From Kalaharituber pfeilii (taxonomy: Eukaryota > Ascomycota > Pezizomycetes > Pezizales > Pezizaceae): a stretch of DNA of 64,000 bases. Below the pieces are notes generated by a model. It saw nothing but the letters and a program-made list of their open reading frames with translations, had not been told where the DNA came from and did no database searches. Of the stretch, positions 923 through 50,567 are shown piece after piece. The position numbers and the translations under genes are program-made. The first letter of the stretch is position 1, and each line of letters opens with the position of its first letter. The stretch spans positions 558,001-622,000 of the forward strand of contig WHUZ01000013.1 of the NCBI GenBank assembly GCA_015179045.1. Direction: 5' to 3'.

Positions 923-1002
923 AATAAAGCTAATGCCCTGCCTTGGCGAGCAGCTGCGCGCGGGGTCACGTGACAAAAAAAAAAAAAAAAAAATAAAGCT
1001 AA
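923..1002 (+). mobile_element. Nano-A retroposon with TSD
   Basis: The body is 934-991: GCCCTGCC, then GGCGAGCAGCTGCGCGC, then GGGGTCACGTGAC and about 19 A. The perfect 11-bp TSD AATAAAGCTAA lies at 923-933 and 992-1002. The insert has the standard family A 5' end and no additional 5' sequence. Confidence 0.85.
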
Positions 1003-1315
1003 AGATATCCGTAGATAAGGACAAGATTTCGCGATAAGACAACATAACTGAATCATGCATGATGTAGTGTGAAACCATGCTAGGCCATGTGCAACCCTTT
1101 CGTACGCCAAATAACCGTTCCAATGGGAAACACAACTAAGCGACCAGTTGTGGGTATGATAGTGGTTGACCAAGCCACATCGTCTCTGCAGGTCAGCTTC
1201 ACGGTTTGGTAGGCTCCTTACAGGGCGTCCCATGAGATTGACCAGTGAAGGGCTATGTACAGGAATGAAACAAGTGCTATAGATACACGAACCGGTAAGC
1301 AAGTACAGTATACGC

Positions 1316-1456
1316 TCGATATAAGAATACTCGATATAAGAATATCTTCGATATGAGAATATGACCAGCCTGCCCCCATACAAATTAAGAATATTTTTGT
1401 TACAAGAATATTCTTAATTTTTTTTTGCTTAGTCATGTACATATTCTTATATTGAA
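1316..1456. repeat. AT-rich direct and inverted repeats (ATAAGAATA)
   Basis: CGATATAAGAATA-like units occur three times at 1316-1361. Inverted partners (ATATTCTTATATT) and a palindrome of AAGAATATT and AATATTCTT follow at 1386-1456. Similar wording recurs at 13.46-13.53 kb. It could be the decayed terminus of a DNA transposon; no gene is visible. Confidence 0.4.
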
Positions 1457-1930
1457 GGTGCACTAATACTGTCTTTCACCACAACCCGACGTGCACCACG
1501 TCCCGACGCACGTTTTACACCAAAACTGACTGTGCGCGACAAACATATATCTCAATCACCAGAGCAGAATCTTGTACACCCTTTTCAGGGAAAATAAATA
1601 AAGGGTTATTCTTCACTTTTAATACCTCTATTTGCACTGAAAGACATTATGGTCAATTAATGGCACCATGAGTTCTTCATAGATGTCTTGGCATGCATTT
1701 ATATAGAATTCCCATTCAAAGGACACTGGAGGATAGGATGCACTACATCCTGTCAACGCTCACCATAATGGCTATAGAATTATGGTAGAGAGTCTCCCCA
1801 ACAAGCCTCTTGATAATTAGTGCTTTGACTGGCTTAATGTTGTTTAATGCCTAGTTCATACATCAAATTGCTGAAGCAACAAATACAGACAAGATGCTCA
1901 GGGATACGTATTGTATTGTTCTCACTTGTC

Positions 1931-2012
1931 TTGTATATGTGCCGGGCCATTCGTAACATCGTTCCAGTGGCCACTGGCCCGGACTACTCAACGGAACGCT
2001 GGTTCGTGATCA
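1931..2012 (+). repeat. Inverted-repeat copy 1 (GGCCACTGGCCCGGACTA)
   Basis: This segment of about 80 bp reappears inverted at 3554-3632 with about 85-90% identity, including GTGCCGGGCCATTCGTAAC and the GGCCACTGGCCCGGACTA core. Related GGCCCGGGCCAGTCA wording also occurs at 4190-4265. It is probably part of a decayed transposon whose ends I cannot define. Confidence 0.5.
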
Positions 2013-2892
2013 TACAACGCATTGACCTTTTTGTTCTGTGCACAGGACTACAACAGAATGTTGGTATGTTGGTGGCTGTTAAATTACTAGAAGGTTCGAG
2101 ATTGTAATTGTCTAGATCATTTGTTTATTTTTTTTGTTTATTTACTCAAGTATTTGTACTTGATATTTTTCCATACTGTCGGTATTTTGAATGTATTCTA
2201 CATATATCGCCTTCTGTTCCATACACTTCTCTAGTATACGACGCCAAGCCTATCTTATTTACCTAAACTGGTAATTACTTTTCAGCCTCATTCCTTAAAA
2301 ATCTTTACCTATGGAGCCTTTTACACCCGAAATTCGCCATCAATTCGAGCTATATATTCAATCTCGGGACCACACAAATAGATATCAAATGGAACCTCAG
2401 AAGTTACATGAAATCCAAATTTTCTGTCGGATCCAGAATGGCCCGTATCTTCAGCAGCTGAGAATAATGTTAAAACTCTTGCGAAGGTAAGTATAACCTA
2501 TAATGAGATATTTTAATAAGATATTAACAAATTAGAAAATTTTCATCAATGGGGACGGAGTTTTAATGCACAAAGCAAATCCTCCCTAAAATAAATACCA
2601 TTGTGAGGTTATTATAGCATCTGACATTATTCAAGATATTCATTGCAATTTTTTAGCTCATGCTGGTAAAAATAAAACTTATTGGCATATTAATAATCAT
2701 TACTGTGGTATTAATAAAGATGAACTACATATTTTTTTAATATCTTGTAAGTAATAACTACTAAAAATCTAACTACTAGAAATCTAGGTATTATGGCTTA
2801 TTCGGCGATGTCGTGTGTGTATTCTTAATCGACCTACTACAACTCGTGCACCTTTGTAGCCTTTAATTGTGAATAAGGTATTCGAGCGCGTG
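2013..2892. other. No gene recognised
   Basis: The sequence is AT-rich with fragmented frames in all six readings. I see no domain, splice structure or repeat that I can name. Confidence 0.45.
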
Positions 2893-3474
2893 CAAATATG
2901 AAGCTGTATTTTTTCTTGCCCTGTCGCCGGAGGAGTCCTTTATGAAGCTGTTTTTTTTTTTTCACCAGAAGCTGTTTTTCCTGTCGCCGGAGGGGGTCAT
3001 TCATGAAGCTGTATTTTTTTATGCCCTGTTGCCGGAGGGGTCCTTGATGAAGCTGATTTTCCTGTCGCCGGAGGGGTCCTTGGTAGAGCTTTTTTTTGCT
3101 CTTGGAGGAGTTAGTGAGCGGCACGAGCTAGCTCGAGCCTAGATTGATTATATATATAATATTGACAAACTAAACTAAACTAAGCTAAATTTTCATCTTT
3201 CTCACTACTATCAGCTAAATTGAGCATTTCGAAGTTGTTGGTAGGTCAGAATGAGCTCCAAATCTCTAATTATTACTATATTAGGTATTTACAGTTTATG
3301 AAACCTTGCACGGGCTAAGCATTTTAGCGAGCTGGCAAGAAAAACACTAGCATGATCTTGGCTCGTTTGAGCTCGAGCGGGCTCGGCTCGTGCCGCTCAC
3401 TACCTGGGAGGAGTTCTTTGTTGGAGCTGTTTTTCCTGTCGCTGGAGGGGTCCTTGGTAGAGCTGTTTTTTTCA
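2893..3474. repeat. GAAGCTG...TCGCCGGAGGGGTCC minisatellite, split by a MITE
   Basis: About six degenerate units of roughly 40-50 bp contain GAAGCTGTTTTTCCTGTCGCCGG and GAGGGGTCCTTGATG-like words at 2893-3110. One to two more units lie at 3400-3474. The MITE at 3114-3400 interrupts the array. The frames within it encode repeats (PLRRQEKQL-like), but these are products of the tandem repeat and not a supported gene. Confidence 0.65.
3114..3400. mobile_element. AGCTCG-rich MITE, copy 1
   Basis: The 287-bp element is bounded by inverted termini GTGAGCGGCACGAGC and GCTCGTGCCGCTCAC, each flanked by TA (3112-3113, 3401-3402). A second copy lies at 47779-48119 in the opposite orientation, with the same termini and an internal AT-rich part sharing TTTAGCTGATAGTAGTGAG-type sequence. 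There is no coding capacity. TA flanks suggest mobilisation by a Tc1/mariner-pogo transposase. Confidence 0.8.
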
Positions 3475-3553
3475 AACAGTGGATGTGTGGAGAGTCTGAG
3501 AGGGTGAATTGTAGGTAGAATAAGAAAATTCAAATTCTGAGTGGCCCGGGCCA

Positions 3554-3632
3554 GTCACTAACCAGCGCTCCATTGAGTAGTCCGGGCTAGTGGCCACTGG
3601 AACGTTTGTTACGAATGGCCCGGCACATATAT
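3554..3632 (-). repeat. Inverted-repeat copy 2 (GGCCACTGGCCCGGACTA)
   Basis: This is the reverse complement of 1931-2012, with a few substitutions, so the pair are inverted repeats spaced 1.5 kb apart. Confidence 0.5.
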
Positions 3633-3731
3633 ACCACGTACAATATGTGCTCTTCACACCCACATATATATAGACATGAGCTGCCAGCAAATTTGTGCAA
3701 ATATGAGGTTGCTCATCATTACAACAAGCGT

Positions 3732-3814
3732 ATCCAGAACCTCTTTTTTTTTTAATTTTATTTCACGTGACCCCGCTTGTAGCTGTTCGCCATGGCAGGG
3801 CATCCAGAACCTCT
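3732..3814 (-). mobile_element. Nano-A retroposon with TSD
   Basis: The reverse-oriented body is 3745-3801: a T-rich tract, TTTCACGTGACCCCGC, TTGTAGCTGTTCGCC, ATGGCAGGGC. The perfect 13-bp TSD ATCCAGAACCTCT is at 3732-3744 and 3802-3814. The 5' end sits exactly at GCCCTGCC. Confidence 0.9.
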
Positions 3815-4455
3815 AGATACCTCATCACCACGTTGGAACTACCTCATGCCATGATCTCGGCTCATGTGCTATCCACGCTCTAGTGGCTTCTTTACACATG
3901 AAAGTCTCACGTGATATGTCCCGTGATGCTCGTTGCATAATCTTCAACACTCCCACTCAACCGATATGCTCGCACACTCATTGCTTCAGAAAATTCATGA
4001 TCAAGCAGAAAGCAGATGCTTTCAAAAACAGACAAGTAATAAGTAGAATATTTGAAAGGCCCATATAATCTTCAATTAAAAAATATACAATCCTGCCATC
4101 TCAGCTCCCGTCAATGTACTTCGACTAATAACTTTTCCTTTTTATTTCACGAGAATTTGTTCGAGGCCAGCCATCTTATCAAGGCCACTCATGACTGGCC
4201 CGATCTACCCATGAGTGGCCTGGGCCAGTCAGTAACTGGGCTATTCATCACTAAAGCGGGCCACTGATCAATTTACAAGGATAAAAGACTAAAAACGAGC
4301 CAAGATGCATAATTAGATCCATGAGTGGGGATGTTGCCGCTTTATAGTACATCATTTCTTAACTGACATGCATTCTTTTGCTTTTAAAAAAATATCGGTC
4401 AACTGACATGCATAGTGCTAGAAGCATCACTCCGTTTACAGTACATGATTTCATA

Positions 4456-4531
4456 ACTGACATTTTTTTTTTTTTTTTGTCACGTTACCCCGCTTGCAGC
4501 TATTCGCCATGGCAGGGCGCTTCACTGACAT
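4456..4531 (-). mobile_element. Nano-A retroposon, imperfect TSD
   Basis: The body is about 4464-4523, with T18 followed by GTCACGTTACCCCGC and ending CATGGCAGGGC. The duplicated target is ACTGACAT (4456-4463 and 4524-4531). Related AACTGACATGCAT words nearby mean the target itself was repetitive, so the exact TSD is uncertain. Confidence 0.75.
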
Positions 4532-4656
4532 GAATAGTACTATGAACATCATCATTTTCCTCTTGATGCGCCTCATCACCAGACTCTTCTGAAGCCCGTT
4601 CAAATTGTTGCTGAATATCTGGACCAAAGGCTCAACAGGTTGAGGAGGCATCTTGA

Positions 4657-4788
4657 ATAAGGTCAAGGAGGGAGTAATGAGAGGCGTGGTGGAGGAGTGT
4701 AGGGAATGCGGTGATCTTAAATAAGGTCAAGGAGAGAGAGTAATAAGGAGGCGTGGTGGAGGAGTGTAGGGAACGCGGTGATAGTAAA
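4657..4788. repeat. Tandem duplication, about 65-bp unit
   Basis: Two consecutive units share AAGGTCAAGGAG, GGCGTGGTGGAGGAGTGTAG and GCGGTGAT with small indels between them. There is no gene context. The stretch from 4790 to 5900 shows no gene I can support. Confidence 0.7.
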
Positions 4789-5900
4789 TATCTCGAGATG
4801 CCCTGTACCTAATTAGGGTCTTATATAATATATTTGCCAAGACAGACAACAAGGAGCGGCCAGGTCTGTAGGGCGGCGATAAATGCAAATTTTCCACTCA
4901 AGTAAGCAGGGTATGTATGGCTGGCCCCGAACAGGGTCAACAACAAATCGGAAGATGCGGCTGGTGCAAAGTGACAAGGCACTACAGAATGAGTGGAGAT
5001 TCAACATTTTTTTGAGCAATGCTGAGACGTTTGAACCTGTTTGGTGAAGACTTCAGCATACTCTCCTTGAAGCCCTGAGTGATGAACTCTAGGTCATAAA
5101 TTCTGCTCATGCTTAGTGGTCTTGTGGTTGCAGACGTGAATGCGGGGTTCTAATTGATTTCAGATTACCAGCGAGGGCTCGTTGGTCCTTGCTAGTTTTC
5201 ATATTTGTTTTTTCCTTTAGGTAGCCACTCATAGCTCTCGCCATGGTCAGCATAGACGCACAGGATTTAATTTTTTTTTTTTTTCAAAAAAAAGTGTGAC
5301 TGCACTAGACTATACTAGTAATAGCTAGATGTCAGCCCGACCCCGCACCATATGCAATACAAGAAAGTCTGCTGCTGCCCATATCATATCATATCCCTGC
5401 TGCTCACTGGTTCCCATATGCAGTTCCAGGTCACCTATCGCTATGATGATCGTCCGGCAGTCCATATAAAAAACGTCGCAACACAACGATAAGCATGCAG
5501 GACGATCGAGTATGATACCAAGCGATGTTTTGAGGGCACTGTCATTCATCAGTCAAAGGCCAGCTACCGGTCAGCGACGAGGGAACACCTCGATAGGCTA
5601 TCTAGTTTGTGTGTACCCCGCTGTGGAACGTGCCACAATTATACCAGTGGGCTTCTTAAACTGGAGCCTTGTGTTCCCAAAAGGAACTGGATCATTTTAG
5701 GACTTGCCAGTCTGGCAGGGGTAATGCTAGGCGCCTTGGCTCTTGCCCCTACTACCGAACAGTCAATGTCTAACAGAGTATAGTGCTGGGAGATGCACTG
5801 CAATGAGTACAGTATAGGCTAAATTGAATGCTCTCATTCCAATATGCAATCAAACAGGCCCAAAAACTAGATCTACAGGATTTACTATTTTATGCACTTC

Positions 5901-5988
5901 ACTAACTTGCAGATTTTTTTTTTTTTTCTTTTTTTTATATCAGTACTCGCGTGCCGCCCTGTGGGCTATGGCGAGACTACCTTGCAGA
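5901..5988 (-). mobile_element. Family B (LINE1 tail) insertion with TSD
   Basis: The body is 5914-5975: a T-rich tract, ATATCAGTACTCGC, GTGCCGCCCTGTGGGC, TATGGCGAG. The TSD ACTAMCTTGCAGA is at 5901-5913 and 5976-5988, with one mismatch. The insert holds only the 3' hairpin of LINE1 plus poly-A. Confidence 0.85.
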
Positions 5989-6021
5989 GCGGCCTCCGGC
6001 TCCAGCGAGCTCACACCTATC

Positions 6022-6161
6022 CTGCGGCATGCCCTGCCTTCCCATAGGGCGGCATGCGAGTAATGATATAAAAAAAAAAAAAAAAAAAAAAAAAAGCCCT
6101 GCCTTGGCGAACAGCTGCATGCGGGGTCACGTGATAAAAAAAAAAAAAAATTCTGCGGCAT
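6022..6161 (+). mobile_element. Nano-A retroposon split by a family B insertion (nested pair)
   Basis: The outer element is a nano-A starting GCCCTGCCTT at 6031 and ending in poly-A near 6150-6152, with TSD CTGCGGCAT at 6022-6030 and 6153-6161. Inside it, a family B tail (6041-6095: CCCATAGGGCGGCATGCGAG, TAATGATAT and about 27 A) duplicated GCCCTGCCTT (6031-6040 and 6096-6105). The inner copy has lost the 5' half of its hairpin. This fixes the order of insertion: A first, then B. Confidence 0.9.
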
Positions 6162-6321
6162 CTCAACTACTGGCAACGATGCCACCGGTGCTGTAGTACA
6201 GAGTATGACATGAGGTTAGCAAACGCTCGAGTTTTGCCGCATGTACGTCATATATACCGCCGGAATTCTATTTTCATACCAAATTGGCTACTTCAACTGC
6301 GTCAACTCTCGAGTCCGGCTC

Positions 6322-6661
6322 AAGTAACTCCGATTTGAGTGCAGGGAGCTGGAGAGGCCCAAGAGAAAGAACAAGGTGGGCGCGCAAGTCACCTAACAGT
6401 GCTGGAAGGACTTAGAAGAGAAAGGGTGGAAGCAGGAGGGTGTGGAGGGCGACCCGGTCGAGGACTGGTTTGCAAGCCTTGATCTGGGATGGCCGTGGAT
6501 GGAGGATACTTTGGGTGCCCAGGGTGTGTACGTAGAGCGTGTAGTCAGTTGTTTCTAACCTGACCCGGGTTTAAGGGTCCCTGCCATAGGCCAGTAACCT
6601 GTATGCGGGGTTACGTGACACCAAAAAAAAAAAAAAAAAAAAAAAAAAAGCAACTCCGATT
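6322..6661 (+). mobile_element. LINE2 3' end, 5'-truncated copy with TSD
   Basis: The body 6336-6647 (312 bp) has TSD AAGYAACTCCGATT at 6322-6335 and 6648-6661. It begins inside the 3' part of LINE2 ORF2 (GAGCTGGAGAGGCCC, compared with GAGCTGGAGCGGCC at 17.15 kb). It ends GGGTCCCTGCCATAGGCC, TGTATGCGGGGTTACGTGAC and poly-A. This terminus is the LINE2 version of the family A tail and links the nano-A elements to a LINE. The remaining coding sequence is short and broken. Confidence 0.8.
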
Positions 6662-8536: not shown

Positions 8537-8622
8537 TTAGGCCGATGAGCCCTGCCATGGCGAACAGCTGCAAGCGGGGTAACATGACAAAAAAAAAAAA
8601 AAAAAAAAAGTTAGGCCGATGA
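8537..8622 (+). mobile_element. Nano-A retroposon with perfect TSD
   Basis: The body 8549-8610 runs from GCCCTGCCATGGCGAACAGC to GCGGGGTAACATGAC plus about 22 A. The 12-bp TSD TTAGGCCGATGA is at 8537-8548 and 8611-8622. This is one of the cleanest examples of the whole family. Confidence 0.93.
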
Positions 8623-8849
8623 AGCATAGCTATCGCGTACCAATGACTCGTTTACGTATATGTGCACAGAGTCGCTATGGCGAGCGCATTTTCCACATTG
8701 ACAAAAGGTTTTACCGTCCGTATTCGCTGCAGTCAGAGTCCGCTGTACTGAAACCCGAACTGTGTATAGTCTCCTTCTGAACGTATACAGTGAACCACAC
8801 CGAGGGTTATATTGAGTCCGTTCTATATTGCATCCTTCTTTCTTTCACT

Positions 8850-8890
8850 TTTTTTTTAAAAAATCACGTAACCCAGCTTGCAGCTATTGA
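8850..8890 (-). mobile_element. Truncated family A tail
   Basis: T8, A6, TCACGTAACCCAGC and TTGCAGCTATTG are the complement of the last 26 or so nt of family A. The 5' half of the hairpin is absent and no TSD is evident, so it may be an old or truncated copy. Confidence 0.5.
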
Positions 8891-9100
8891 AAACCTTATG
8901 TGCTGTAGCTTAGCCGAAATAAGATATAGAGAAGTGCGTCAGATTAAACAAATATTCGTGCTCGAGGAAAGCTGAAGTTAACCACATCAAATCGTGCCTA
9001 CCGAAACTTCAGACTAAACGTAAAACTGGCTTTCGTTTACGGCGCCAATTAGATTCTGGTACCATAGTTGTCCGTACTTCACCTGCCCTCACTGCGCCCT

Positions 9101-9197
9101 TAGATTCTCGTTTGCGCCCTTAGATTCTCGTTTGCGCCCTGCCATGGCAGATAGCTGCATGCGGGGTCACGTGAAACAAAAAAAAAAATTCTCGTTT
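9101..9197 (+). mobile_element. Nano-A retroposon at a 20-bp tandem duplication
   Basis: The body is about 9134-9187: GCGCCCTGCCATGGCAG, ATAGCTGCATGCGGGG, TCACGTGAAAC and poly-A. TSD ATTCTCGTTT lies at 9124-9133 and 9188-9197. Immediately upstream, TAGATTCTCGTTTGCGCCCT is tandemly duplicated (9101-9140), so the target site and the first bases of the element were copied again. Confidence 0.8.
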
Positions 9198-10239: not shown

Positions 10240-10274
<35 letters not shown>

Positions 10275-10550
10275 CTTTATTATCACATAACCCCGCTTGC
10301 AGCGCCAAGCCATGGCAGGGTCCCTGGGCAAGCCCTCGAAGCTAGGAGACAGGCTTAACGAACAAAGAAATTTCTATCTACTTCTAAAGCCCGAATCCAG
10401 AAACCTCCGGACGGTCCAAAACCTGATTCCAGAAACCTCCAGACGGTCCTTCCGGTTTCTGCCTCAGGAAGGCTCCACTATATCTCTCCCCCTCTCCCCC
10501 CTCCCCTCTTCTCCACATCTTCGCAGTTTCCTCCACCCGTAGCTGCTCTT
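10232..10550 (-). mobile_element. SINE-like element, about 290 bp, with TSD
   Basis: The body 10246-10536 is in reverse orientation, with 14-bp TSD CCGTAGCTGCTCTT at 10232-10245 and 10537-10550. Read in sense, it starts GTGGAGGAAACTGCGAAG, passes through a G/A-rich tract, AGATATAGTGGAGCC, an internal duplication around AGAAACCTCCGGACGG (given on the plus strand) and AGGGCTTGCCCAGGGA. It ends CCCTGCCATGGCTTGGCGC, GCAAGCGGGGTTATGTGAT and A-rich. I see no open frame and no convincing A or B box. A second copy lies at 48776-49077. It sits about 225 bp upstream of the gene starting at 10774, within its likely promoter or 5' UTR. Confidence 0.85.
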
Positions 10551-12907: not shown

Positions 12908-12993
12908 TTTATATTGTGGACCTCACCATAGCCTATCAGGCGGCATGTGAGTAATGATATTAAAAAAAAAAAAAAAAAAATTTATATTGTGGA
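12908..12993 (+). mobile_element. Family B (LINE1 tail) insertion with perfect TSD
   Basis: The body 12921-12980 reads CCTCACCATAGCC, TATCAGGCGGCATGTGAG, TAATGATATT and poly-A. TSD TTTATATTGTGGA is at 12908-12920 and 12981-12993. The hairpin has changed on both sides: CTCAC pairs with GTGAG, and GCCT pairs with AGGC. Confidence 0.92.
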
Positions 12994-13869
12994 AATCGGA
13001 TACATTTGTTACTGTTTAGAACCTTCTGTTCCAACAACCTTCCTCGACACCGACACCCCTCAATCCAATGTGCCGCTGTTTGCTCGGCTTCCTCGCTTAG
13101 TCTCCAGCACTCTCCTCCTCCTAGGGCATTTCACGAAAGTTCATATGCCAAGATGCAAACATGATCATAGTGAGGCAGTGTGGTTGTACTTACATCTACG
13201 GCCATAGACTGAAGAAAACGAGGCATCCCGTCCGCTCTGCCATATCTAAGCTTCAGATCGCCAAGTTAGTACTACAGTGGGTGACCATGTGGGAATCCTT
13301 GGTGCTGTAGATAGTAAGTCTCTTGAATCGGGTACCCATTTTTTTTTTTTTAACTTTTGACGCATAAACGTAGGATTTCTTTTGAGTCTCCCAGCTTCAG
13401 CTCCTAGATCTTTCTTTTGCGTCCCGGCCCGTTCCCGGCCCCGCTATCTTCCTTCATACAAAATATTTTTGTTAGCATTATTCTTATTTTTGCTGCTTAG
13501 TCATGTACAATATTCTTGTGACGAAAGCAATGCTATTTACCTTGGGCATTTATCGATAAGACTGCAACAATCAATTAATCAATTTTGTTTCCTTCATAGC
13601 AGCAAGGGTCGGTATTTAACGCGTACGCGGTGCGCTGAATATAACGCAGCTCTTGGACTGGAGTCGGGTCTGGTCTCGTCCCCAGAGTCAGATCAAAGCT
13701 GATGAGGTTATGTAGCTATTTCTAAGAAAGAATCGTCTTGATAATAAGGTATATTTCACATGGCAGGAGGGCAGGACAGAATCCGTATACGGGAGTACAC
13801 TGTAGTAGTCTCTTAAGAGCTAATTTGTTACAGCGCTTTCGTAGCTCTCCTCCTCTTTCTTTCCTCTGC
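12994..13869. other. No gene recognised
   Basis: Short frames occur at 12.95-13.2 and 13.38-13.7 kb without domains. The segment 13458-13530 resembles the AT-rich repeat near 1.38-1.45 kb (TATTTTTGTTA and CTTAGTCATGTACA). Nothing else can be supported. Confidence 0.4.
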
Positions 13870-24100: not shown

Positions 24101-24841
24101 TTTTTATATTGCATGCATATTATATACATATGCATATATATTCCATATGGAGTGCTCAATCCGAGTCAGCCCTTTAGCATCCCATCGAGTGGTTGCAGTG
24201 CAAATGATAGTACATGAAGTTAGCAGACTATGTTTCTGAACCTCTAGTGACCCATATTGACATACACTGCTACGTACTATGTAAGGAAGTTAGGCTTTTA
24301 CATATATGTATACATTGTAGTGCTCAACTGCCCCAACCATTTTGTCAATGCTGCAATCCATTCAGAAAACATTTCCCTATGCATGTACTTCTATTATATA
24401 GCTTTACAGGGTCTCTGTGCATCTTTCTCATCAAATATTACCTCAATACTGCTATCAACCTAAGTAAGTGAAAATGTATTTTCTGACATGGCAGTAACTT
24501 TGTACTAATAAGTCCAATAGTCACAAAACTTGGTATATTTACTTAGCATAGGCAATAGAGGATATATTGAGATGTAAAGGCCTCAGGTAATCTCATTCAC
24601 ATATAGTGACTCAGAGTATATCCTAGAATAGGGTTGCATATATTCCAGTATATGCCACCCCTCATGTGCTACAAACTGGGAATAGATAGTGTGGAAAATA
24701 ATTTACTTTGTCCTCTCATGCGCTGACTTTAATTTGAGCCCACTTGAGCGTCATTTGCATTCACAGCAGCTCTGTACGTAGGTTAATGGACTTGAGAGTC
24801 GGTTTCCCGGTGATGATCGGTTTCTAGCAGGTGAAGCACTC
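24101..24841 (+). mobile_element. Half copy of foldback element R1
   Basis: About 740 bp match one arm of the inverted-repeat element at 44987-46708, ending with the same terminus (TTTCTAGCAGGTGAAGCACT then CTC) followed by TA at 24842-24843. The opposite arm is missing. At the other side it begins beside a poly-T tract at 24094-24107. Confidence 0.75.
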
Positions 24842-24875
24842 TATACCTTACTGCCTGGCCGATGAATGTCAGTTA

Positions 24876-26629
24876 ACGTCACTGACCGGGATCCGGCGCA
24901 TTACCGGGATCCGGCGCACTCCCGGAATAAAAACAATAGCCTCCTGTAAGGCCAAATCTTCATAGAAGATAACCAAATTGCACATACAGCTTGGAGAGGT
25001 ATAGGAAAGTAACTTCCGCACCTCAGTTAGCCAATTGGAAATTTTGAATGATACTCTATAGTGGTAGTTGCCCAATTAGGCATCTGAACCCTATGCAGGT
25101 GTAAAATGGCAAGATGGCTGTTTAGGACCTTGAGCAAGTGCATATACCTTCTACAGTATGTATTCAAGAGATATGGAATGTTTCATGATGATTGGATACA
25201 TATGGAACAAGTGGTGAGCCAATATCCATACATATATTTTTACTGCTAGAAGTGAATTCTGATATTCAGTCTGTATATATTTTTAAAAATATAAGGCATG
25301 TTCAGAATGCTCTAGAATATAACTCTATACATAGGAGAATATATCTTGAGTAGCCTATAGGTATAGGTATTAACAGAAAGTAGAGATTAATAGAGATATC
25401 TATCTATCTATACCTAATTAGGTAATGCATATTCCTTAATGCACCATATATGAATGCTGCAGTCTTGAGCTATGAAACTTTAGAAATATAATCTAAAAGC
25501 TTCTGAAATATTATATAGAAACTCTCAGAGTAACTCAATTATATTTGTTATAGTTACACATAATTTTTTAAATTTGGTCTATTTATTTTCTTAGAACTAG
25601 ATAAAGTGAAGAGAACAGTTGGATTCATAGATGCTATTTATTTTACAGAAGAGATAGTGAGAGAATAAATAAGAAAGTTATCTCTTATAATTGAGTTGAG
25701 TAGTAGGAAGCTAAGTACGGAAATAAAAAAGTTATAGAAATGCAACAGCATATATAGGAGTAGAAATAAGTAATAAAAATAAGAAACAAGTGATGAACCT
25801 TCTAGTATACTTGCGCGATGCACTCAAAGTAAGGTGCTAGTGATGTATTGGCTATTATTGAGTCATAATAAGAGTATTTATGCATGTTGCAATGACATAT
25901 AAACTAAAATCCAAGGTGTCTTTATATAGAAGGAGACATAATCATGTCTACTTTGAGCAAGTAGTATTAAGTTACTCTGAGAGTTTTTATATAATATTCC
26001 AGAAGCTTTTAGATTATATTTCTAAAGTTTCATAGCTCAAGACTGCAGCATTCATATATGGTGCATTAAGGAATATGCATTACCTAATTAGGTATAGATA
26101 GATAGATATCTCTATTAATCTCTACTTTCTGTTAATACCTATACCTATAGGCTACTCAAGATATATTCTTCTATGTATAGAGTTATATTCTAGAGCATTC
26201 TGAACATGCCTTATATTTTTAAAAATATATACAGACTGAATATCAAAATTCACTTCTAGCAGTAAAAATATATGTATGGATATTGGCTCACCACTTGTTC
26301 CATATGTATCCAATCATCATGAAACATTCCATATCTCTTGAATACATACTGTAGAAGGTATATGCACTTGCTCAAGGTCCTAAACAGCCATCTTGCCATT
26401 TTACACCTGCATAGGGTTCAGATGCCTAATTGGGCAACTACCACTATAGAGTATCATTCAAAATTTCCAATTGGCTAACTGAGGTGCGGAAGTTACTTTC
26501 CTATACCTCTCCAAGCTGTATGTGCAATTTGGTTATCTTCTATGAAGATTTGGCCTTACAGGAGGCTATTGTTTTTATTCCGGGAGTGCGCCGGATCCCG
26601 GTAATGCGCCGGATCCCGGTCAGTGACGT
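24876..26629. mobile_element. Long foldback transposon, about 660-bp inverted arms
   Basis: The element begins ACGTCACTGACCGGGATCCG and ends with its mirror image, flanked by TA at 24874-24875 and 26630-26631. The arms (about 24876-25538 and 25967-26629) are near-identical inverted repeats, including a duplicated CCGGGATCCGGCGCA subrepeat near each tip. The AT-rich middle of about 430 bp has no gene. The 68-aa and 96-aa frames mirrored in the two arms are by-products. TA duplication and terminal ACGTCA suggest Tc1/mariner-pogo mobilisation. Near-identity of the arms implies recent formation or gene conversion. Confidence 0.88.
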
Positions 26630-26873
26630 TACAACTATTGTGAACACTACAAAGCGATATGCAGCATCAGATTGGCAACAAATCCAATGTATAAATGAGT
26701 GTGAGTGTTGTATAATCTGAAGGGGATAACGCTTAGAAACTGAGCGTTTTTGTTACGGATTCACCGCAACCGTAGGGCGGGCGGTCGGTGGATGCGCATA
26801 TGCGACGTAGGCGATATGCGACAGCCGCCGGCGTCGTAGTCGCGAAATGTGCTATATGAGCTACGCAGAGGAC

Positions 26874-28956: not shown

Positions 28957-29039
28957 GAGGCCCTTCCCTGCCCTGCCATGGCGAACAGCTGCACGCGGGG
29001 TCACGTGACACAAAAAAAAAAAAAAGGAGGCCCTTCCCT
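28957..29039 (+). mobile_element. Nano-A retroposon inside LINE1, perfect TSD
   Basis: The body 28970-29026 reads GCCCTGCCATGGCGAACAGC, TGCACGCGGGGTCACGTGAC, AC and poly-A. TSD GAGGCCCTTCCCT is at 28957-28969 and 29027-29039. It interrupts codons near the end of LINE1 ORF2. Confidence 0.92.
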
Positions 29040-29307: not shown

Positions 29308-30159
29308 TTTTTTTGATCACGTAACCCCGCCGCAGCAGGCCCTCAGCCTATGGCAGGGCCCCTTTATTACCCGAAGGCAGGTCTGTGACACCGGATTGCT
29401 GGCCGGGTCACCCATGCTACCTAGCTATCTACCTATCTACATGGCTTCACCGTGGCTTCACCGTGGCTGCAGGTGAACAAGGTGCAGACAGTAAGTGGAT
29501 CAAGCATTTGTTCATACAATGGATTAATCGATTCTCCAAGTCAGTCAGTCTCCATTGCGTCCTCCCCAACCATATCCACCTGCCCGGTCTACACCAGGCC
29601 CTTTCCCTTTTCTCTCCTTCCCCTATCCCACTCATACGCATCCCATCTGTACTTCTTTCCACCGATGTGCAGAGTCTCTTGTATTTGACTTGTCCTACCT
29701 GCCCCCTCCAGGTACATAAACAACAACTGAACTAGTCACCTTTCCTTCCCTCCTCTCTTGCTTCAACAGCCATCAAGCCACAGAGACCTTCACGCCCAAT
29801 TCATTATCCACCTCCAACCACTTCCGAACATTCCCCAGTCTCTTGGCACAGCTATCCCATGAACCACTATTGCTGGAGTGGCAGGTTGTGGTTCTGACTT
29901 ATGTTGTAAAGGGGCTTGCTCTTTGGAGTAGAAGTGGCCCTGGAGGTGGTCATTTCCTTTTTTTTTTTTTTAAATATCACGTAACCCCGCTTGCAGCTGG
30001 TCGCCATGGCAGGGCGGCCATTTTATTTTGGGCCGGACAGGCAGGTGGATCTCGCTTCTTCACAGCACTGTGTGGAGTGAGAGGGGCTGGCCTTTTTGAG
30101 GGTAGTGCAGAGGTTTGGGCAGCTTGCTTCTACATATGAGACCTGCTTGGCTTCTGACT

Positions 30160-31635: not shown

Positions 31636-31724
31636 AACCTGACAGCCCGCCCTGCCATGGCGAACAGCTGCAAGCGGGGTCACGTGATATAAAAAAAAAA
31701 AAAAAAAAAAAACCTGACAGCCCG
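31636..31724 (+). mobile_element. Nano-A retroposon with perfect 14-bp TSD
   Basis: The body 31650-31710 runs CCCTGCCATGGCGAACAGC to GCGGGGTCACGTGATAT and about 21 A. TSD AACCTGACAGCCCG is at 31636-31649 and 31711-31724. It is the best copy for defining the family A consensus. Confidence 0.95.
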
Positions 31725-34331: not shown

Positions 34332-34410
34332 TATAGTGCAATTTTTTTTTTTTTTTTTTTTTTCATTACTCGCATGCCGCCCTGTGGGCTATGGCGAGTA
34401 TAGTGCAATT
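34332..34410 (-). mobile_element. Family B (LINE1 tail) insertion with perfect TSD
   Basis: The body 34344-34398 is T20, TCATTACTCGCATGCCGCCC, TGTGGGCTATGGCGAG. TSD TATAGTGCAATT is on both sides. It holds the minimal hairpin only. Confidence 0.93.
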
Positions 34411-37870: not shown

Positions 37871-37936
37871 ATATCTTTTTTTTTTTTTTTTTTTTTTTTT
37901 TTCACGTGACCCCGCGTGCAGCTGTTCGCCATATCT
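37871..37936 (-). mobile_element. Slightly truncated nano-A insertion
   Basis: About 27 T are followed by CACGTGACCCCGCGTGCAGC and TGTTCGCC, so the copy lacks the last 10 or so nt at its 5' end. The TSD is perhaps ATATCT at 37871-37876 and 37931-37936. Confidence 0.75.
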
Positions 37937-38516: not shown

Positions 38517-38598
38517 ATCGGTAGCCCTGCCACGACGAACTGCTGTAAGCGGGGTTACATGATATTAAAAAAAAAAAAAAAAGTGGGGGGAATCGGTA
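38517..38598 (+). mobile_element. Nano-A retroposon, uncertain TSD
   Basis: GCCCTGCCACGACGAACTGC, TGTAAGCGGGGTTACATGAT and ATT are followed by about 16 A from 38524. ATCGGTA occurs at 38517-38523 and 38592-38598, but GTGGGGGGA separates the poly-A from the right copy. Confidence 0.7.
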
Positions 38599-39045: not shown

Positions 39046-39135
39046 CAATGCTAAGTTTTTTTTTTTTTTTTTTTTTTTTTTTATATCACGCAACCCCGCT
39101 CACAGCTGTTCGCCATGGCAGGGCACAATGCTAAG
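39046..39135 (-). mobile_element. Nano-A retroposon with TSD
   Basis: The body 39056-39125 is about 27 T, ATATCACGCAACCCCGC, TCACAGCTGTTCGCC, ATGGCAGGGCA. TSD CAATGCTAAG is at 39046-39055 and 39126-39135. Confidence 0.9.
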
Positions 39136-39890: not shown

Positions 39891-39970
39891 CGACCGCCAG
39901 CATTTTTTTTTTTTTTATTTCACGTGACCCCGCATGCAGCTGTTCGCCATGGCAGGGCGACCGCCAGCAT
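39891..39970 (-). mobile_element. Nano-A retroposon with perfect TSD
   Basis: The body 39904-39957 is T-rich, ATTTCACGTGACCCCGC, ATGCAGCTGTTCGCC, ATGGCAGGG. TSD CGACCGCCAGCAT is at 39891-39903 and 39958-39970. Confidence 0.93.
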
Positions 39971-42140: not shown

Positions 42141-42291
42141 GCTATTTAAGCCTTTTTTTTTTTTTTTTTTTTTTTTTTGCCACTTAATTACTCGCAGGCC
42201 GCCCTACGGGCTATGGCGAGGTTAAGTACACAGGAAATATAAGGAAATAACAGAAGTATGATAAATGTAGGAACCCGGCTATTTAAGCCTT
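42141..42291 (-). mobile_element. LINE1 3' end, 123-bp truncated copy with perfect TSD
   Basis: The body 42155-42277 is about 23 T, GCCACTTAATTACTCGC, AGGCCGCCCTACGGGC, TATGGCGAGG and about 50 bp of upstream LINE1 3' UTR. TSD GCTATTTAAGCCTT is at 42141-42154 and 42278-42291. Confidence 0.93.
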
Positions 42292-44247: not shown

Positions 44248-44422
44248 GCGAAGACAGTTTTTTTTTTTTTTTTTTTTATATCAGTACTCGCGCGCCGCCC
44301 TAGGGGCTATGGCGAGGGTTAAGTACATGAGAGGTGAAATAGTAGTAAGGAAATAAGTGATGATACATGAACAGTCAGGTAGAAAGGGAAAGAAAATTCA
44401 ATGGAAGTTGTGCGAAGACAGT
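44248..44422 (-). mobile_element. LINE1 3' end, 153-bp truncated copy with TSD
   Basis: The body 44259-44411 is T-rich, ATATCAGTACTCGCGCG, CCGCCCTAGGGGC, TATGGCGAGG and about 85 bp of LINE1 3' UTR. TSD GCGAAGACAGT is at 44248-44258 and 44412-44422. Confidence 0.9.
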
Positions 44423-44986
44423 GATCAGTCATAAGCACAACAAAGTTCGCAATCTGCTGAACTCATGATTACCATTATAAGAATGGCCTCGGGATTGACA
44501 ACTACCCGTTAAGAGCATTGGGGGCTATGCTGCTGTTCTGACCGTGCACACTTGAGCTATTGTGGGACGGCCAGTTTGCTGATGAACTCCCTATTGTTTT
44601 TGCCGGCACCCTCGCACCACCAGAAAAGGTGTATTAATTAACTCTGGTAGCGAGTACTCCTTATGAAAGACTGGCCCAGCAGTCATCTCAAACTGAAAAT
44701 CTCCCCCGCCAGCATGCTGCTATCCAGTCGTAACATTAGTCCATACTCAGTAAGCTTAGGAGTGTTGATACATATGAGAAAGTACTCTCTGTGAATGATA
44801 CTGCTCATTTTCAATTAAATCATATGCATAGGGTCCTGATTGCGTATGCTTGCACTGTTACCTGTCCGAAAGGAGACGACTCAATTTGGATGAGTTCGGT
44901 TACGTCGTCACAGTTTGCTAGTGCAATGCAATCACCAATGAAGCCATGTCATTCCTTACAGACTGGTCTACATTTGCGCCACATTA
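44423..44986. other. No gene recognised
   Basis: No long frame or defined repeat can be supported up to the foldback element. Confidence 0.4.
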
Positions 44987-46708
44987 GAGTGCTTCACCTA
45001 GAACCGATCATCACCGGGAAACCGATCAAATTCATAAACCTACATGCAAAGCTGCTGTGAATGCAAATGACACTCAAGTGGGCTCAAATTAAAGCCAGAG
45101 CATGAGAGAACATAGTAAATTATTTTCCACACTTTCTTTTCCCAGTTTGTAGCACATGGGGGGTGACATATACTGGAATATATGCAATAATATACTTTTG
45201 AGACACCATATGTGAATGAGATTACCTGAGGCCTTTGCATCTCAATATATCCTCTGTTGCTTATGCTAAGTAAGTATTCCAAGTTTTGTGACTATTGGAC
45301 TTATCAGCACAGAGTTACTATCATGTCAAAAAATACATTTTCCTTACTTAAATTGATGGCAGTATTAAGCTATTATTTGTTGAGAAAGATGTACAGATAC
45401 TCTGTAAAGCTATATAATAGAAGTACATGCATAGGGAAATGCTTTCTGAATGGATTGCAGCATTGACAAATGGTTGAGACAGTTGAGTACTACAAGATAT
45501 AGATATATGTAAAAGCCTAACTTCCTTACATAGTACGTAGCAGTATATGTTAATATGAGTCACTAGAGGTTCAGAAACATATCTTAGCACTGTCATAATA
45601 TTACTTCTAAGCTTATGTAGAATATACATGACTCTATCATTAGATTCTATAAGGCTACTATAACTGCATCAGTGAGTCAGTATAGAGTATGGATTGTAAG
45701 CAGTAAATAATAGCCACATACACTTATAGGACTAATACCTATGCAATGCATGGCAGTAGAAATAAGTTAACTAGTCAAGTCTTATATTGTTCTTAATCCA
45801 ATAAAATTTCCTATGATAAGGATCCTCATTACTATAGAAATAAATACTTCAACAGTATCAGTAATAGAGATAGTAAGCACAGAGAATTAACCTCTGCCAG
45901 GTGAAAAAGAAACTCGACTGGGAATTCTCACTAGTTCTTCTTAGCAGCTCATATCGCCCTCATGATTGCAACACATTTTACTGCTGTCATATAGCGTATG
46001 CATGTTATATGCATATGCACATGTGTTCTATATGCAGTGCTCATTCCGAGTCAGCCCTTTAGCATCCCATCGGGTGGTTGCAGTGCAAATGAAGCTAGCA
46101 GACTATGTTTCTGAACCTCTAGTGACCCGTATTGACATACACTGCTACGTACTACCGGTATGTAAGGAAGTTAGGCTTTTACATATATGTATACATTGTA
46201 GTGCTCAACTGCCCCAACCATTTGTCAATGCTGCAATCCATTCAGAAAGCATTTCCCTATGCATGTACTTCTATTATATAGCTTTATAGAGTGTCTGTGC
46301 ATTTTCTCAACAAATAATAGCTTAATACTGCCATCAATTTAAGTAAGCAAAAATGTATTTTTTGACAATGATAGTAACTCTGTACTAATAAGTCCAATAG
46401 TCACAAAATCTGGTATACCAACTTAGCATAAGCAACAGTGGATATTGCAAAGGCCTCAGGTAATCTCATTCGCATATGGTGACTCAAAAGTATATCCTAG
46501 AATATGATTGCATATATTCTAGTATATGTCACCCCCCATGTGCTACAAACTGGGAAAAGAAAGTGTGGACAATAATCTACTATGTTCTCTCATGCTCTGG
46601 CTTTGATTTGAGCCCGCTTGAGTATCATTTGCATTCACAGCAGCTCTGTATGTAGGTTTATGAATTTGATCGGTTCCCGGTGATGATCGGTTTCTAGGTG
46701 AAGCACTC
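44987..46708. mobile_element. Foldback transposon R1, about 600-700-bp inverted arms
   Basis: The left tip GAGTGCTTCACCTAGAACCG and its mirror at the right tip (ending AGGTGAAGCACTC) are flanked by TA at 44985-44986 and 46709-46710. The arms (about 44987-45590 and about 46110-46708) are inverted copies at roughly 90% identity. The middle of about 400-500 bp has no gene. A half copy lies at 24101-24841. The architecture parallels the foldback element at 24.9 kb, but the sequence is different. Confidence 0.82.
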
Positions 46709-46819
46709 TATGTATTTACTCGCAGGTTGCTGGCATACCTTATGCGGGTGGTCGACAGTGCTTCTAGGTTGCAGCAGTTCCATGCAAACAATAAACAGAA
46801 TTACAATCCATCAACAGTG

Positions 46820-47500
46820 TTATACAAGCAGGCTTCCCTTTCTAGCATCCACAGCAGAGCAGGAGGAGTGGGATAGGACAATAGCGGAAGCAGAGGATGA
46901 GGGTGGAAAACGGTGTACACGGATGGCAGCCGAATAGAAGGCATGGGAGCCGCTGGCCACTTGCAGGAGGGAACAGCAAAATCAATCTACTTGGGGACAA
47001 CAGCCACAATCAATGATGCGGAATTAATGGCAATAGCCCAGGCCCTTGAGAAGGGAGAGGAGGAGCTACTGTTCACTTCGGACTCACAGGTAGCGGCGAT
47101 CGGGGGACTACGAAGCGTCAGGGGTGGGAGGCCGACGCCTGATGGAGCGAGCCAGATGTGCCAGAAGGCCTGGGAAGGGGGACGAACCGGGGGCTCTAGA
47201 TATGCCTAATATATGGATGAAAGGACACAGGGGCATGGAGGGAAACGAAAAGGGAGACCAGGCAGCAAGGCAGGGGACCTTCCTCCCCTACCAGGACAGG
47301 ATGTAGCGGAGGCAGGCACTCAGGCAATCACCAAAACACAACGAGCACAGGAAACGAACAGACCGAGACAATAGTCTAAATTGGTCTTTATTCTCTTTAT
47401 TGACAATTTTCCCTTTGCTTTTCTTTTATCTATATATTTAATCTAGTCATAGCCCGTGGGGACGCACACCAGTAATGATTTCTTTAGAAAGGAAAAAGAA
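46820..47500 (+). pseudogene. LINE1 RNase H relic and 3' end
   Basis: EQEEWDRTIAEAEDEGGK shifts frame to VYTDGSRIEGMGAAGHLQEG, NDAELMAIAQALEKGEEELL and TSDSQVAAIGGL (RNase H Asp, Glu and Asp region), then in another frame MKGHRGMEGNEKGDQAARQG. It ends with a decayed tail CTAGTCATAGCCCGTGGG and CAGTAATGATT near 47447-47480. Frameshifts show it is dead. It starts right beside the R1 foldback element. Confidence 0.75.
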
Positions 47501-47778
47501 AAGAACAAGTTGTATAAGGTTATCGGAAGCCGGCTACACTCGAAAGGGTTGTCCGCTGACCTCGTGCTGTGCGGGTACAACTAGAAGGTGGCTGGCAATT
47601 ATCCTACCAAATTCTAGTGGCCAGGTTTTTTGGAGTTCGAAGACGAGATCCATTCTAGATTTTCATACTACATACGCATCACATTTTCAGCTTTTGCGAG
47701 AAGTTCCCCATGTGTACTTCTGCTGCAATGTAAACCAATTGCAAAGACGGCATCGGTCTGATCCGTCCCTTGTAGGTA
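47501..47778. other. No gene recognised
   Basis: This is a short spacer between the LINE1 relic and the MITE; nothing is supported. Confidence 0.4.
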
Positions 47779-48119
47779 GTGAGCGGCACGAGCCGAGCCA
47801 GCTCGAGCTCAAACGAGCCAAGATCATGCTTGTGTTTTTCTTGACAGCTCGCTAAAATGCTTAGCCAGTGCAAGGTTTCATAAACTGTAAATACCTAATA
47901 TAGTAAAAATTAGAGACTTGGAGCTCATTCTGACCTACCAACAACTTCGAAATGCACAATTTAGCTGATAGTAGTGAGAAAGATGAAAATTTAGCTTAGT
48001 TTAGTTTAGTTTGTCAATATTATGTATATAATCAATCCAGGCTCGAGCTCATGCCACGCCAGCTAGAGCTGGCTCGAGCTCACCCTCCAGCTCGGCTCGA
48101 GCTAGCTCGTGCCGCTCAC
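47779..48119. mobile_element. AGCTCG-rich MITE, copy 2
   Basis: The 341-bp element with termini GTGAGCGGCACGAGCCGAGC and AGCTCGTGCCGCTCAC is flanked by TA (47777-47778 and 48120-48121). It is the inverted partner of 3114-3400 and retains extra AGCTCGAGC repeats at its right side, so it is closer to full length. Confidence 0.82.
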
Positions 48120-48640
48120 TACTTGTAGGCTGCATCGTTCGTACATTTGGGATCGTGTTTCGAATTTGAAATACAGTAAAGGGGGGATGGCAAAAATTTG
48201 TATAGAAACCACTAGAGTAGGAAATAAACAAGTGTAGCAAACATCAACTCAATCCAAGTCTATCCAATATTCATTGCTCTCACCATCTAGAAAAGCGTCG
48301 AGCCTCAAACGTTCTTGGGGAGCATCAAATACACAAGCATCGACTAGAGTCAAAACATGCAACTCTGACTGTTTCTCTAAAAGCCGATCAGTTCACACAT
48401 AAAAAGCTTCAAACTCTACAAGAATGGTTCCAGTCTTGCAGCAGCAGCAACGACAGCAGTGGTAGGATCACCCTTCCCGCAAATTTATCAAAACTATGTG
48501 AGCCTCTAGTCATACCATTTGCACTCGAAAAGCATTTGCCCAAGCCTTCTCACTCTCCACTTTGCAGATTGGAGAATCTCTAACGTAAACCGCAAGTAGC
48601 AGACAAGCAGGTAATGATAAGATCCATAGGTCGCAAGGTT
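48120..48640. other. No gene recognised
   Basis: No gene is seen. GCAGCAGCAACGACAGCAGT near 48440 is a short CAG-like run. Confidence 0.4.
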
Positions 48641-48735
48641 ATACTTACCGTAAGCAGTTTTCCTTTGAAATAAACCCTCGCCATAGCCCGTAGGGCGGCA
48701 CGCGAGTAATGATATAAAAAAATACTTACCGTAAG
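48641..48735 (+). mobile_element. Family B (LINE1 tail) insertion with perfect TSD
   Basis: The body 48655-48721 starts CAGTTTTCCTTTGAAATAAA (20 nt of LINE1 3' UTR), then CCCTCGCCATAGCCCGTAGG, GCGGCACGCGAGTAATGATA and poly-A. TSD ATACTTACCGTAAG is at 48641-48654 and 48722-48735. Confidence 0.94.
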
Positions 48736-48761
48736 GACGAGTTGCGGATTTATGACACGGC

Positions 48762-49091
48762 GAATGGAGAGGAACTCGCAGGTTGCGAAGGTGTGGAGGA
48801 AACTGCGAAATTTGCCGTCGGGGAAGTTTGCTTGCCGGGATGCGAAAGTGTGGGGAGGAGGGGAGGGGGGAGAGGGGGGGATATATAGTGGGGCCTCCCT
48901 GAGGCAGAAACCGGAAGGTCCGTCCGGAGGTTTCTGGAATCAGGTGGTAGAAGTAGATAGAAAGTTCTTTGTTTGTTAAGCCTGTCTCCGGGCTTCGAGG
49001 GCTTGCCCAGGGACCCTGCCATGGCTTGGCGCTGTAAGCGGGGTTATGTGATTTTAAAAAAAAAAAAAAAAAAAAAAGAATGGAGAGGAAC
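48762..49091 (+). mobile_element. SINE-like element, 302 bp, perfect TSD
   Basis: The body 48776-49077 starts TCGCAGGTTGCGAAGG and continues GTGGAGGAAACTGCGAA, a G-rich tract, GATATATAGTGGGGCC, AAACCGGAAGG, AGGGCTTGCCCAGGGA. It ends CCCTGCCATGGCTTGGCGC, TGTAAGCGGGGTTATGTGAT and poly-A. TSD GAATGGAGAGGAAC is at 48762-48775 and 49078-49091. Compared with the 10.2-kb copy it has about 55 more nt at the 5' end and lacks the internal duplication. There is no open frame and no obvious Pol III box. Confidence 0.9.
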
Positions 49092-50567
49092 GAGGTGGTA
49101 ACTGCGGAGGAAGTCAGGGACCAGATGGATAGTCATTGTAAGCTTGATGATGCGCAAGAGGATGGGTTCGCAGGGCGCACCGTCTTCTAGAGTACTTGGA
49201 TTCACCTTGACATTACTATGGACCCACTTGTTTGGAAATCCAGCATGCTCAATTTCCATGACAAACCTGGAAAACCTTCCGTAAATGGTATGGACACGTG
49301 CCTTTCTGCCCTAAATGTACATCAAGTGTATAATGTCAAATGCTAAAAGCCATGGCTAGCAATTGGACTACCATTGCCAAGCCGGGGGTAGAGTAATATG
49401 TTAGGTAATTTATTTTGTGTTTTTCTCAAACTCAACAGCTACAGCACACCCTGGGATTATGTATCCATCCTCAGGTTGCTACCAACCTTTCCATGCATCC
49501 TCAATAGGTGCATAGTTCACCTGAAAAGCTGTGGATCATAGTTCATATAAAATTTTGCCCCGCAATGGCGAATAGCTGCAAGCGGGGTTACGTGATATGG
49601 AGGGAAAAAAACAAGAGTAAATCTTACCCAGACGCGCCTATCTACCATCGAATATGTGATTCAACATTTGGAAGTAAAAGTGGTATAATTTCAATAATTT
49701 AATTCCTTCCGCTGTGCTCCGAAAACTATGCATTTTTGAAGACCGAAGTACCCTGTAGCCCATTTTGGGGCCGAATCTCCGTCACGGTGAACCCAATGGT
49801 TCTTCGCTTCCTACTATATAAATTACAACCAACATTAAACCCTGAAATGAACTTAGCGAAGCATCACTAGTGGAGCATGTTAGTACATATTAGAGAGGAT
49901 GCGATGTCAACTGGCTCTATTTGCAGGGGCCCTGGCACGACGACAAGGCCGCCTTGTTCAACACCCTGGTGATAGAGCCAGCAGGGGTCAGAAGCCAGAC
50001 TGTCCAGACTGGCGTTTTTTCCGTCGCTGTGGCTCCTACAAACCCACAGAGAAATCCCACTGTACATACATACGAACTCGCGGAAAAAAGCAAATTGTAC
50101 GAACGTACGGACTCCATGCCACACGAGAACTCTACAGCCTATTCAGCTACAGGACTGGAGAATGCGCATGCATTATTGTGCTATCGGGATGCTTAGGGCT
50201 ACTGATACGTTATTAGTAAATACTCAGACAGCATTGTGGGTATGAAGGAGTGCATAAATGCAAGTTGACATGTAAAATGATGCATATGATTATAAGAAAT
50301 ATAACCTTTTTCACGTATAGGTAGAGCCAGACAGTACCTTTTGTCAACAGTGTCAAGCAAAATCCCATCCTAAAATCACAGAGCCAGTTCTATAGTTTCC
50401 CCGCTTTTGCCATCTTGAGCTTGGTCGGAAGATTTGGAGTAATGCCAGCTTTAAATCGCATCCTTTCTCATCGGTAAGTCATCTACCTCATCTAACTGAC
50501 TGCCGCGATACAGGGATCTTTCATCGTTAAATTTTCAAGCCGCCGTCATTCATTGACACTAAGGCTA
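49092..50567. other. No gene recognised; one nano-A at 49.56 kb
   Basis: Overlapping 66-105-codon frames at 49.87-50.2 kb lie on both strands with no domain. I see no other element before the Tc1/mariner-like transposon. Confidence 0.4.
49555..49610 (+). mobile_element. Old nano-A copy
   Basis: TGCCCCGCAATGGCGAATAG, CTGCAAGCGGGGTTACGTGA, TAT are followed by GGAGGG and A7. It has the full hairpin with the usual 5' end, but no poly-A junction TSD is recognisable, which suggests age. Confidence 0.7.

Follow-up and report, generated by a model that had tools for sequence, protein, structure and literature searches.

Solitary 3'-terminal hairpins of long interspersed nuclear elements with 5' ends at predicted helix edges in the genome of Kalaharituber pfeilii

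The stretch of DNA of the Kalahari desert truffle, Kalaharituber pfeilii (Pezizales), analyzed here (64,000 nt, hereafter the window; contig WHUZ01000013.1 of assembly GCA_015179045.1, positions 558,001 to 622,000) contains multiple copies of a tiny inserted unit, nano-A or family A, the relationship of which to long interspersed nuclear elements (LINEs) is the subject of this work. The copies of this family begin at one base (GCCCTGCC), are 39 bases long, end in GCGGGGTCACGTGA or a closely similar sequence, and are followed by poly-A. A pattern search of the window yielded 14 matches, 13 of which belong to family A, the 14th (29308-29359) being a LINE hairpin of another type. The exact eight-base start GCCCTGCC is present in 12 of the 13 intact copies, with the sole exception of the copy at 49557 that starts with GCCCCGCA; in addition, the window holds one copy that starts inside the hairpin (around 37932, minus strand) and one chimera of families A and B (6031). 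By visual inspection, seven copies are flanked by target-site duplications (TSDs) of at least 10 bp and three more by TSDs of 7-9 bp.

A first-pass annotation of this window had described nano-A as a discrete retroposon, and much of its description stands: the common start GCCCTGCC applies to 12 of the 13 intact copies, and the end GCGGGGTCACGTGA plus poly-A, the unit length of 39 nt, the sharp 5' start and the TSDs were confirmed. The count of eight or more copies with TSDs of 10-14 bp was slightly generous. The plus-strand starts (935, 6096, 8549, 9136, 28970, 31649 and 38524) were placed 0-2 bases off, except for the one given as 6031, which is the chimera in front of the copy at 6096; the copies given at 3801, 4523, 30022, 39125 and 39957 are all on the minus strand, although only the first of these had been marked as reverse. 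The chimera and the nano-A copy behind it lie within one outer TSD (ctgcggcat), and this pair may result from a template jump or from insertion into a tail.

Table 1. Copies of LINE hairpins in the window (positions within the window)
Feature	Position	Strand	Remarks
Nano-A copy (hairpin and tail)	935..993	+	Loop variant CTT..TGCGC, from pattern search; variant also LINE-joined in L136
Nano-A copy	3744..3801	-	TSD agaggttctggat
Nano-A copy	4463..4518	-	Short TSD (tgtcagt)
A/B chimera	6031..6095	+	5' end of A hairpin fused to 3' part of B hairpin, then A26
Nano-A copy	6096..6150	+	Directly after the poly-A of the chimera
Nano-A copy	8549..8609	+	TSD ttaggccgatga
Nano-A copy	9136..9188	+	TSD attctcgttt, 2 extra nt
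Nano-A copy	28970..29025	+	TGCAC variant, TSD gaggcccttccct
Nano-A copy	29958..30015	-	No TSD by script
Nano-A copy	31649..31712	+	TSD aacctgacagcccg
Family A copy	37876..37932	-	Start inside the hairpin; 5' end approximate
Diverged nano-A copy	38524..38582	+	TSD: none by script, 7 bp by eye
Nano-A copy	39056..39124	-	TSD cttagcattg
Nano-A copy	39903..39958	-	TSD atgctggcggtcg
Old nano-A copy	49557..49611	+	GCCCCGCA start, no TSD found
Nano copy of D-like LINE hairpin	720..775	-	CCCTGTCATGGCTTAGCGC..; TSD at hairpin base, tail end approximate
Longer D-type LINE 3' fragment	10244..10536	-	TSDs gagcagctacgg
Family B nano copy	12921..12980	+	TSD tttatattgtgga
Family B nano copy	34342..34398	-	CTCGCC start, TSD (aa)ttgcactata
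Longer D-type LINE 3' fragment	48776..49077	+	TSDs gaatggagaggaac

To place these copies in the context of the whole genome (78.03 Mb, 360 contigs), we searched it for the loop-to-tail core of family A (GGCGAACAGC-N(0-10)-GCGGGGTCACGTGA) and obtained 868 exact matches, compared to none for the reversed control, which, together with the TSDs, rules out a chance origin of the family. The flanks were analyzed for 68 of the 100 exact cores that head the list (contigs C1-C18), namely, the first eight as listed and 60 chosen before their flanks were seen. Homology to the LINE 3' untranslated region (UTR) ends exactly where the hairpin begins (site 1) in 60 of the 68 copies (including L055 and L176, where a 10-base alignment is spurious; L051 has an altered 5' arm), and at a second point 37-38 nt upstream (site 2) in four, whereas in the other four, the LINE UTR continues past site 2. 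No copy stops between the two sites, so we reject truncation at random over the final 160 nt, and, in line with the first-pass annotation, there is no smooth spread of 5' starts: 64 of the 68 copies, all found with a 29-nt core that is blind to truncation within itself, fall on two positions. The further assertion that no copy with this loop carries extra 5' sequence holds in the window but not genome-wide, with the LINE 3' UTR being present upstream of eight of the 68 hairpins.

The upstream segment has 135 exact copies in the genome. Among 40 copies of the upstream hairpin that were read, 20 stop at AAGCCT (site 2; L160 is doubtful) and 20 continue into the LINE UTR (including L091, although its homology stops at 36), one of these (L144) ending 83 bases further upstream; L180 is the same locus as L134.

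The source of the hairpins was sought at the 3' ends of LINEs. In a search with the RVT_1 profile, 150 of 1113 candidates were scored and the 3' flanks of 12 LINE-type matches were examined: a hairpin followed by poly-A is present in 10 of the 12, and none was found in the 3' flanks of L130 and L132. The hairpins are of the D type in L039-L041, L043, L127, L128, L131 and L133, and of the A type in L129, downstream of the RVT_1 match. Two additional loci were found by taking the DNA upstream of family A copies. One of these, L126, encodes RVT_1 (1.1e-23) and RNase_H (9e-13) domains in two adjacent frames, with the A hairpin, including the same loop, about 180 bases past the stop of the frame; the other, L125, has an RNase_H frame with an A hairpin behind it. 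The relatives listed in a protein search with the reverse transcriptase (RT) frame of L126 carry PF00078, PF00075, PF14529 and PF03372. In L042, an RNase_H frame (7.8e-14) stops 45 bases upstream of a family B hairpin; at this LINE end (1255-1357), a short D-type copy comes immediately after the B hairpin and its poly-A.

All three hairpin families (A, B and D) represent LINE tails, and nano-A almost certainly corresponds to the 3'-terminal hairpin, without the rest of the element, of a LINE that carries RNase H. With the exception of TGCAC, the main loop variants of the nano copies each also occur joined to LINEs. The first-pass annotation had itself named longer copies with the same loop joined to a LINE or SINE body as an observation that would speak against a separate retroposon, and LINE-joined hairpins of this kind are found in L125, L126 and L129, while four of the 68 copies run past site 2 into the LINE UTR; we therefore reject nano-A as a family without longer relatives. 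The pattern is real and striking, but had been misread as a discrete retroposon family; we interpret it as a form of 5' truncation of LINEs in which structure defines the ends. From the earlier view, the non-random nature of the truncation survives, as does a subfamily, TGCAC, that is seen in short forms only.

The lack of a tRNA-type head was also borne out in the window. The hallmark of short interspersed nuclear elements (SINEs) is a head derived from tRNA, 5S or 7SL RNA that bears an RNA polymerase III promoter. No tRNA gene was detected in the window and no Rfam family matches any of the copies at gathering thresholds; accordingly, derivation from a tRNA- or 5S-type SINE finds no support there. 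The only Rfam match in the window is a 5S rRNA gene (RF00001, 87.8 bits) at 13194-13313.

The two end points coincide with the edges of predicted RNA helices. When the A and D hairpins are folded alone, bases 1-7 pair with bases 26-32, and the copies start at the first paired base; in the A hairpin, the predicted 7-bp helix is GCCCUGC/GCGGGGU. The predicted upstream hairpin, AAGCCUG/CGGGCUU, begins at site 2, and in LINEs where this helix is UAGCCUG/CGGGCUA, an A-U to U-A change between LINE types, copies begin at that U (L102, L103). Apart from the helix edge, we found by eye no motif common to site 1 (GGG^GCCC, GGG^ACCC) and site 2 (AT^AAGCC, TT^TAGCC), which argues against sequence-specific cleavage. 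In a comparison between families on 12 hand-picked sequences, the outer stem is paired in 90.5% of the cells, compared to 38-52% in slid controls, and three of the seven pairs show changes on both sides. A conserved terminal hairpin with covariation, as in the 3' stem-loops of stringent-type LINEs, is present, with one weak shuffle control (see below).

Comparable, although less uniform, behavior is seen in other LINE types. The genome contains 699 exact matches to D-type hairpins, from which 40 copies were chosen to cover the loop types, such that proportions between types are meaningless. For the loops CAAGT, CACGT and TTAGT (n = 30), 12 copies start at the hairpin and three at site 2, and the remaining 15 extend further, with scattered ends in several; scatter was seen only among such longer copies. 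Family B has 269 exact cores in the genome; among the 38 copies that were read, a TSD lies within three bases of CGCC in seven, four of which start exactly at CTCGCC, the edge of CUCGC/GCGAG, and the rest are longer, unclear or truncated inside. TSD-flanked insertions of LINE origin with discrete 5' ends that match predicted helix edges are thus found in several LINE types, and site-1 copies of other LINE hairpins are what would be expected of a by-product of LINE copying.

The insertion junctions bear on how these ends arise. A script detected TSDs, of varying quality, in 54 of the 60 site-1 copies; some of the other six show a TSD by eye. At these 54 junctions, the hairpin abuts the TSD exactly in 26 cases, is separated from it by 1-6 extra bases in 17, and overlaps it by 1-5 bases in 11. 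The overlaps are at chance level (p = 0.53), so ends driven by microhomology are rejected. At 16 copies, the extra bases amount to 17 T, 6 C, 2 G and 1 A, with the 6-base extra of L008 excluded from this count. For site 2, 20 of 22 loci matched the pattern and 18 have a TSD, with 6 abutting junctions, 8 with 1-4 extra bases and 4 overlapping by one base. The junctions look like the products of an RT that finishes at an RNA end and adds a few bases, unlike those from a capped end: a capped RNA end would favor G additions, as in L1. Two more head-to-tail hairpin pairs split by poly-A were observed (L190 and L198), and in L198, the first unit is an A-type upstream domain joined to a family B-like tail. 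None of the three pairs, including the one at 6031-6150 of the window, was counted as evidence of template jumping, given that later insertion into poly-A looks alike.

Collectively, these observations suggest that the length of element that gets copied depends on RNA folding rather than on chance. We favor a mechanism, to which we would give roughly an even chance, whereby the RT receives LINE RNA that has already been shortened, by cutting or trimming, to a helix edge. Nano-A would be inserted by target-primed reverse transcription, presumably by the LINE enzyme, with the hairpin GCCCUGC/GCGGGGU and poly-A serving as a probable tag for the LINE protein, by analogy with stringent-type LINEs. 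A cut, or trimming in the 5' to 3' direction, would leave the LINE RNA with a 5' end at the 5' edge of a helix that is stable or bound by protein, either the terminal hairpin (site 1) or the AAGCCUG/CGGGCUU hairpin 37-38 nt upstream (site 2). The remaining RNA of 39 nt or about 76 nt plus poly-A would be the template, and the RT would run off its end, often with the addition of a few untemplated bases. The trimmed templates are predicted to be uncapped RNAs beginning with GCCCUGCC and AAGCCUGCC.

Several points weigh against this mechanism. Exonucleases acting 5' to 3' usually stop some bases short of structure, so the exact edges are also compatible with a structure-specific endonuclease. Starts inside hairpins do exist in the window, at 37932 in family A and at 8864 and 15593 in other hairpins. 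The support from folding is uneven: among the 12 picked sequences, the count of both-sided pairs was matched by 76 of 500 shuffles and the covariation score by 1 of 500; local folds of 35-37 nt at the upstream site are no better than shuffles (z of 0.18, 0.18 and -0.29); z for five terminal hairpins ranges from -0.69 to -2.42; and when 215 nt of seven LINE ends are folded, other pairings compete with both helices, which do not figure in every best structure (for example, in L126 and L125). For D-type hairpins with TTGG/GGGG loops, there is no clean site-1 copy among 10 (two are odd), which the model leaves unexplained; in the D-type loci with TTGG loops, L114-L121 and L123, the 5' ends are scattered and there is no clean nano copy, unlike in their relatives, which makes these LINEs a natural contrast for studying the mechanism. 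Finally, the RT of a fungal LINE reportedly has fixed template-switch points near hairpins (PMC2104539), so pausing of the enzyme is possible.

The main alternative, possible but in our estimate rather doubtful, builds on such behavior of the enzyme: the LINE RT would copy through the helix and, on leaving its 5' side, release the template or jump to another one, such that a long RNA yields a short cDNA. Discrete ends at helix edges would follow, and the A/B chimera at 6031-6095 is consistent with template switching. However, the RT moves 3' to 5' on RNA and is expected to pause before a helix, that is, on its 3' side, whereas a 5' end immediately 3' of the upstream helix, or of a weak hairpin in the middle that lies 4 nt from site 1, is seen in none of the 68 copies, and RT stops at these points are accordingly rejected. 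Aborted cDNAs often use microhomology, and the junction overlaps at chance level do not agree with this. A fungal precedent is MGL of Magnaporthe grisea, in which fixed switch points are ascribed by its authors to RT pausing at hairpins, but the motif reported for it, GCC^A/U, fits neither site (PMC2104539).

The TGCAC loop variant raises the question of whether short forms can also propagate on their own. The main site-1 loop variants are TACAA, TGCAC, TGCAT, TGCAA and CGCAT, with TGCAC accounting for 11 of the 60 site-1 copies. All 16 exact places where the TGCAC variant keeps upstream sequence were read (including L150, L157 and L165), and none is joined to a LINE; after collapsing one duplicated flank (L165, L205 and L206 with L150), 13 remain, 8 at site 2 and 5 irregular. 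By contrast, the CTT-TGCAT variant is LINE-joined in 6 of 12 places read (of 30 exact), compared to 0 of 13 for TGCAC (Fisher p = 0.005). This is the only result that favors a self-propagating short form. One conceivable, if unlikely, interpretation is that the hairpin with poly-A propagates itself as a retroposon that has no promoter: transcripts of any kind that contain the hairpin would be trimmed to the helix edge and re-inserted, with the TGCAC lineage already free of the LINE. If so, it would be RNA folding rather than transcription that fixes the 5' boundary of a retroposon. That nano-A is, at least in part, a retroposon in its own right, with nano-A RNA lacking any LINE body as the template, appears quite improbable: the other main variants are LINE-joined, the loop of the window copy at 935 is that of the LINE-joined L136, and no promoter or source locus turned up, the searches made being those for tRNA genes and Rfam families in the window. 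Moreover, the source of TGCAC could be a LINE that has transcripts but seldom gives rise to full-length copies, or one that has diverged from the exact search pattern.

Trimming of the cDNA, in which the 3' end of the first strand would fold into a DNA hairpin and nucleases would remove the single strand up to the helix before joining, predicts the same helix-edge ends and is consistent with the observed end points, but is very unlikely. It does not naturally give the extra T and C bases at 17 of the 54 junctions; these bases resemble nucleotides added without a template once the cDNA end was complete.

Beyond the hairpin copies, the window contains long repeats of 87-99% identity (24113-24844, 44981-45584 and 45998-46711; 24874-25539 and 25966-26631), the last two of which form a nearly perfect inverted pair. 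An open reading frame of 397 amino acids (50705-51898) is a candidate pogo/Tc1-type transposase, judged by eye only.

The features of nano-A overlap with those of several known systems. Classical LINE 5' truncation, in L1 and other elements, leaves LINE 3' ends with TSDs and poly-A, as here, but its ends are scattered, whereas here most ends near the tail lie on two helix edges. The stringent-type LINEs UnaL2 of eel and ZfL2-1 and ZfL2-2 of zebrafish possess a 3' stem-loop that is reported to be needed for retrotransposition and to be bound by ORF2 (PMC4176376, PMC5135761). Nano-A resembles these in having a short 3'-terminal stem-loop common to related elements; it differs in that, in K. pfeilii, the hairpin alone is present as hundreds of copies with a fixed 5' end, the tail is poly-A and protein binding is putative. 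MGL is likewise a fungal LINE with discrete positions, for which hairpins were proposed and microhomology is lacking, but MGL chimeras join a second RNA at GCC^A/U, whereas most of the copies described here join target DNA directly, without a common site motif (PMC2104539). Nano-A shares with fungal SINEs, such as Mg-SINE and AfuSINE (PMC5063351), the non-coding nature, LINE-like tail and TSDs, but no polymerase III-type head was found in nano-A, which is only 39 nt long and exists in a LINE-joined form. In titles and abstract openings, a limited coverage that makes for a weak negative, we found no report of LINE copies ending at helix edges or of such units in Kalaharituber, and studies on human L1 and XRN1 (PMC11014359) and on mycorrhizal genomes (PMC7550596) gave us no precedent.

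On the question of what sets the 5' end of a LINE insertion, this genome allows a direct test between a cut RNA and a stalling enzyme: hundreds of its insertions have their 5' ends on two helix edges, and LINE types that differ in their hairpins show the same pattern. Nano-A also offers a template of minimal size (39 nt plus poly-A) that occurs naturally and can be used to study target-primed reverse transcription, and it illustrates how LINE copying can leave a by-product that passes for a tiny independent retroposon.

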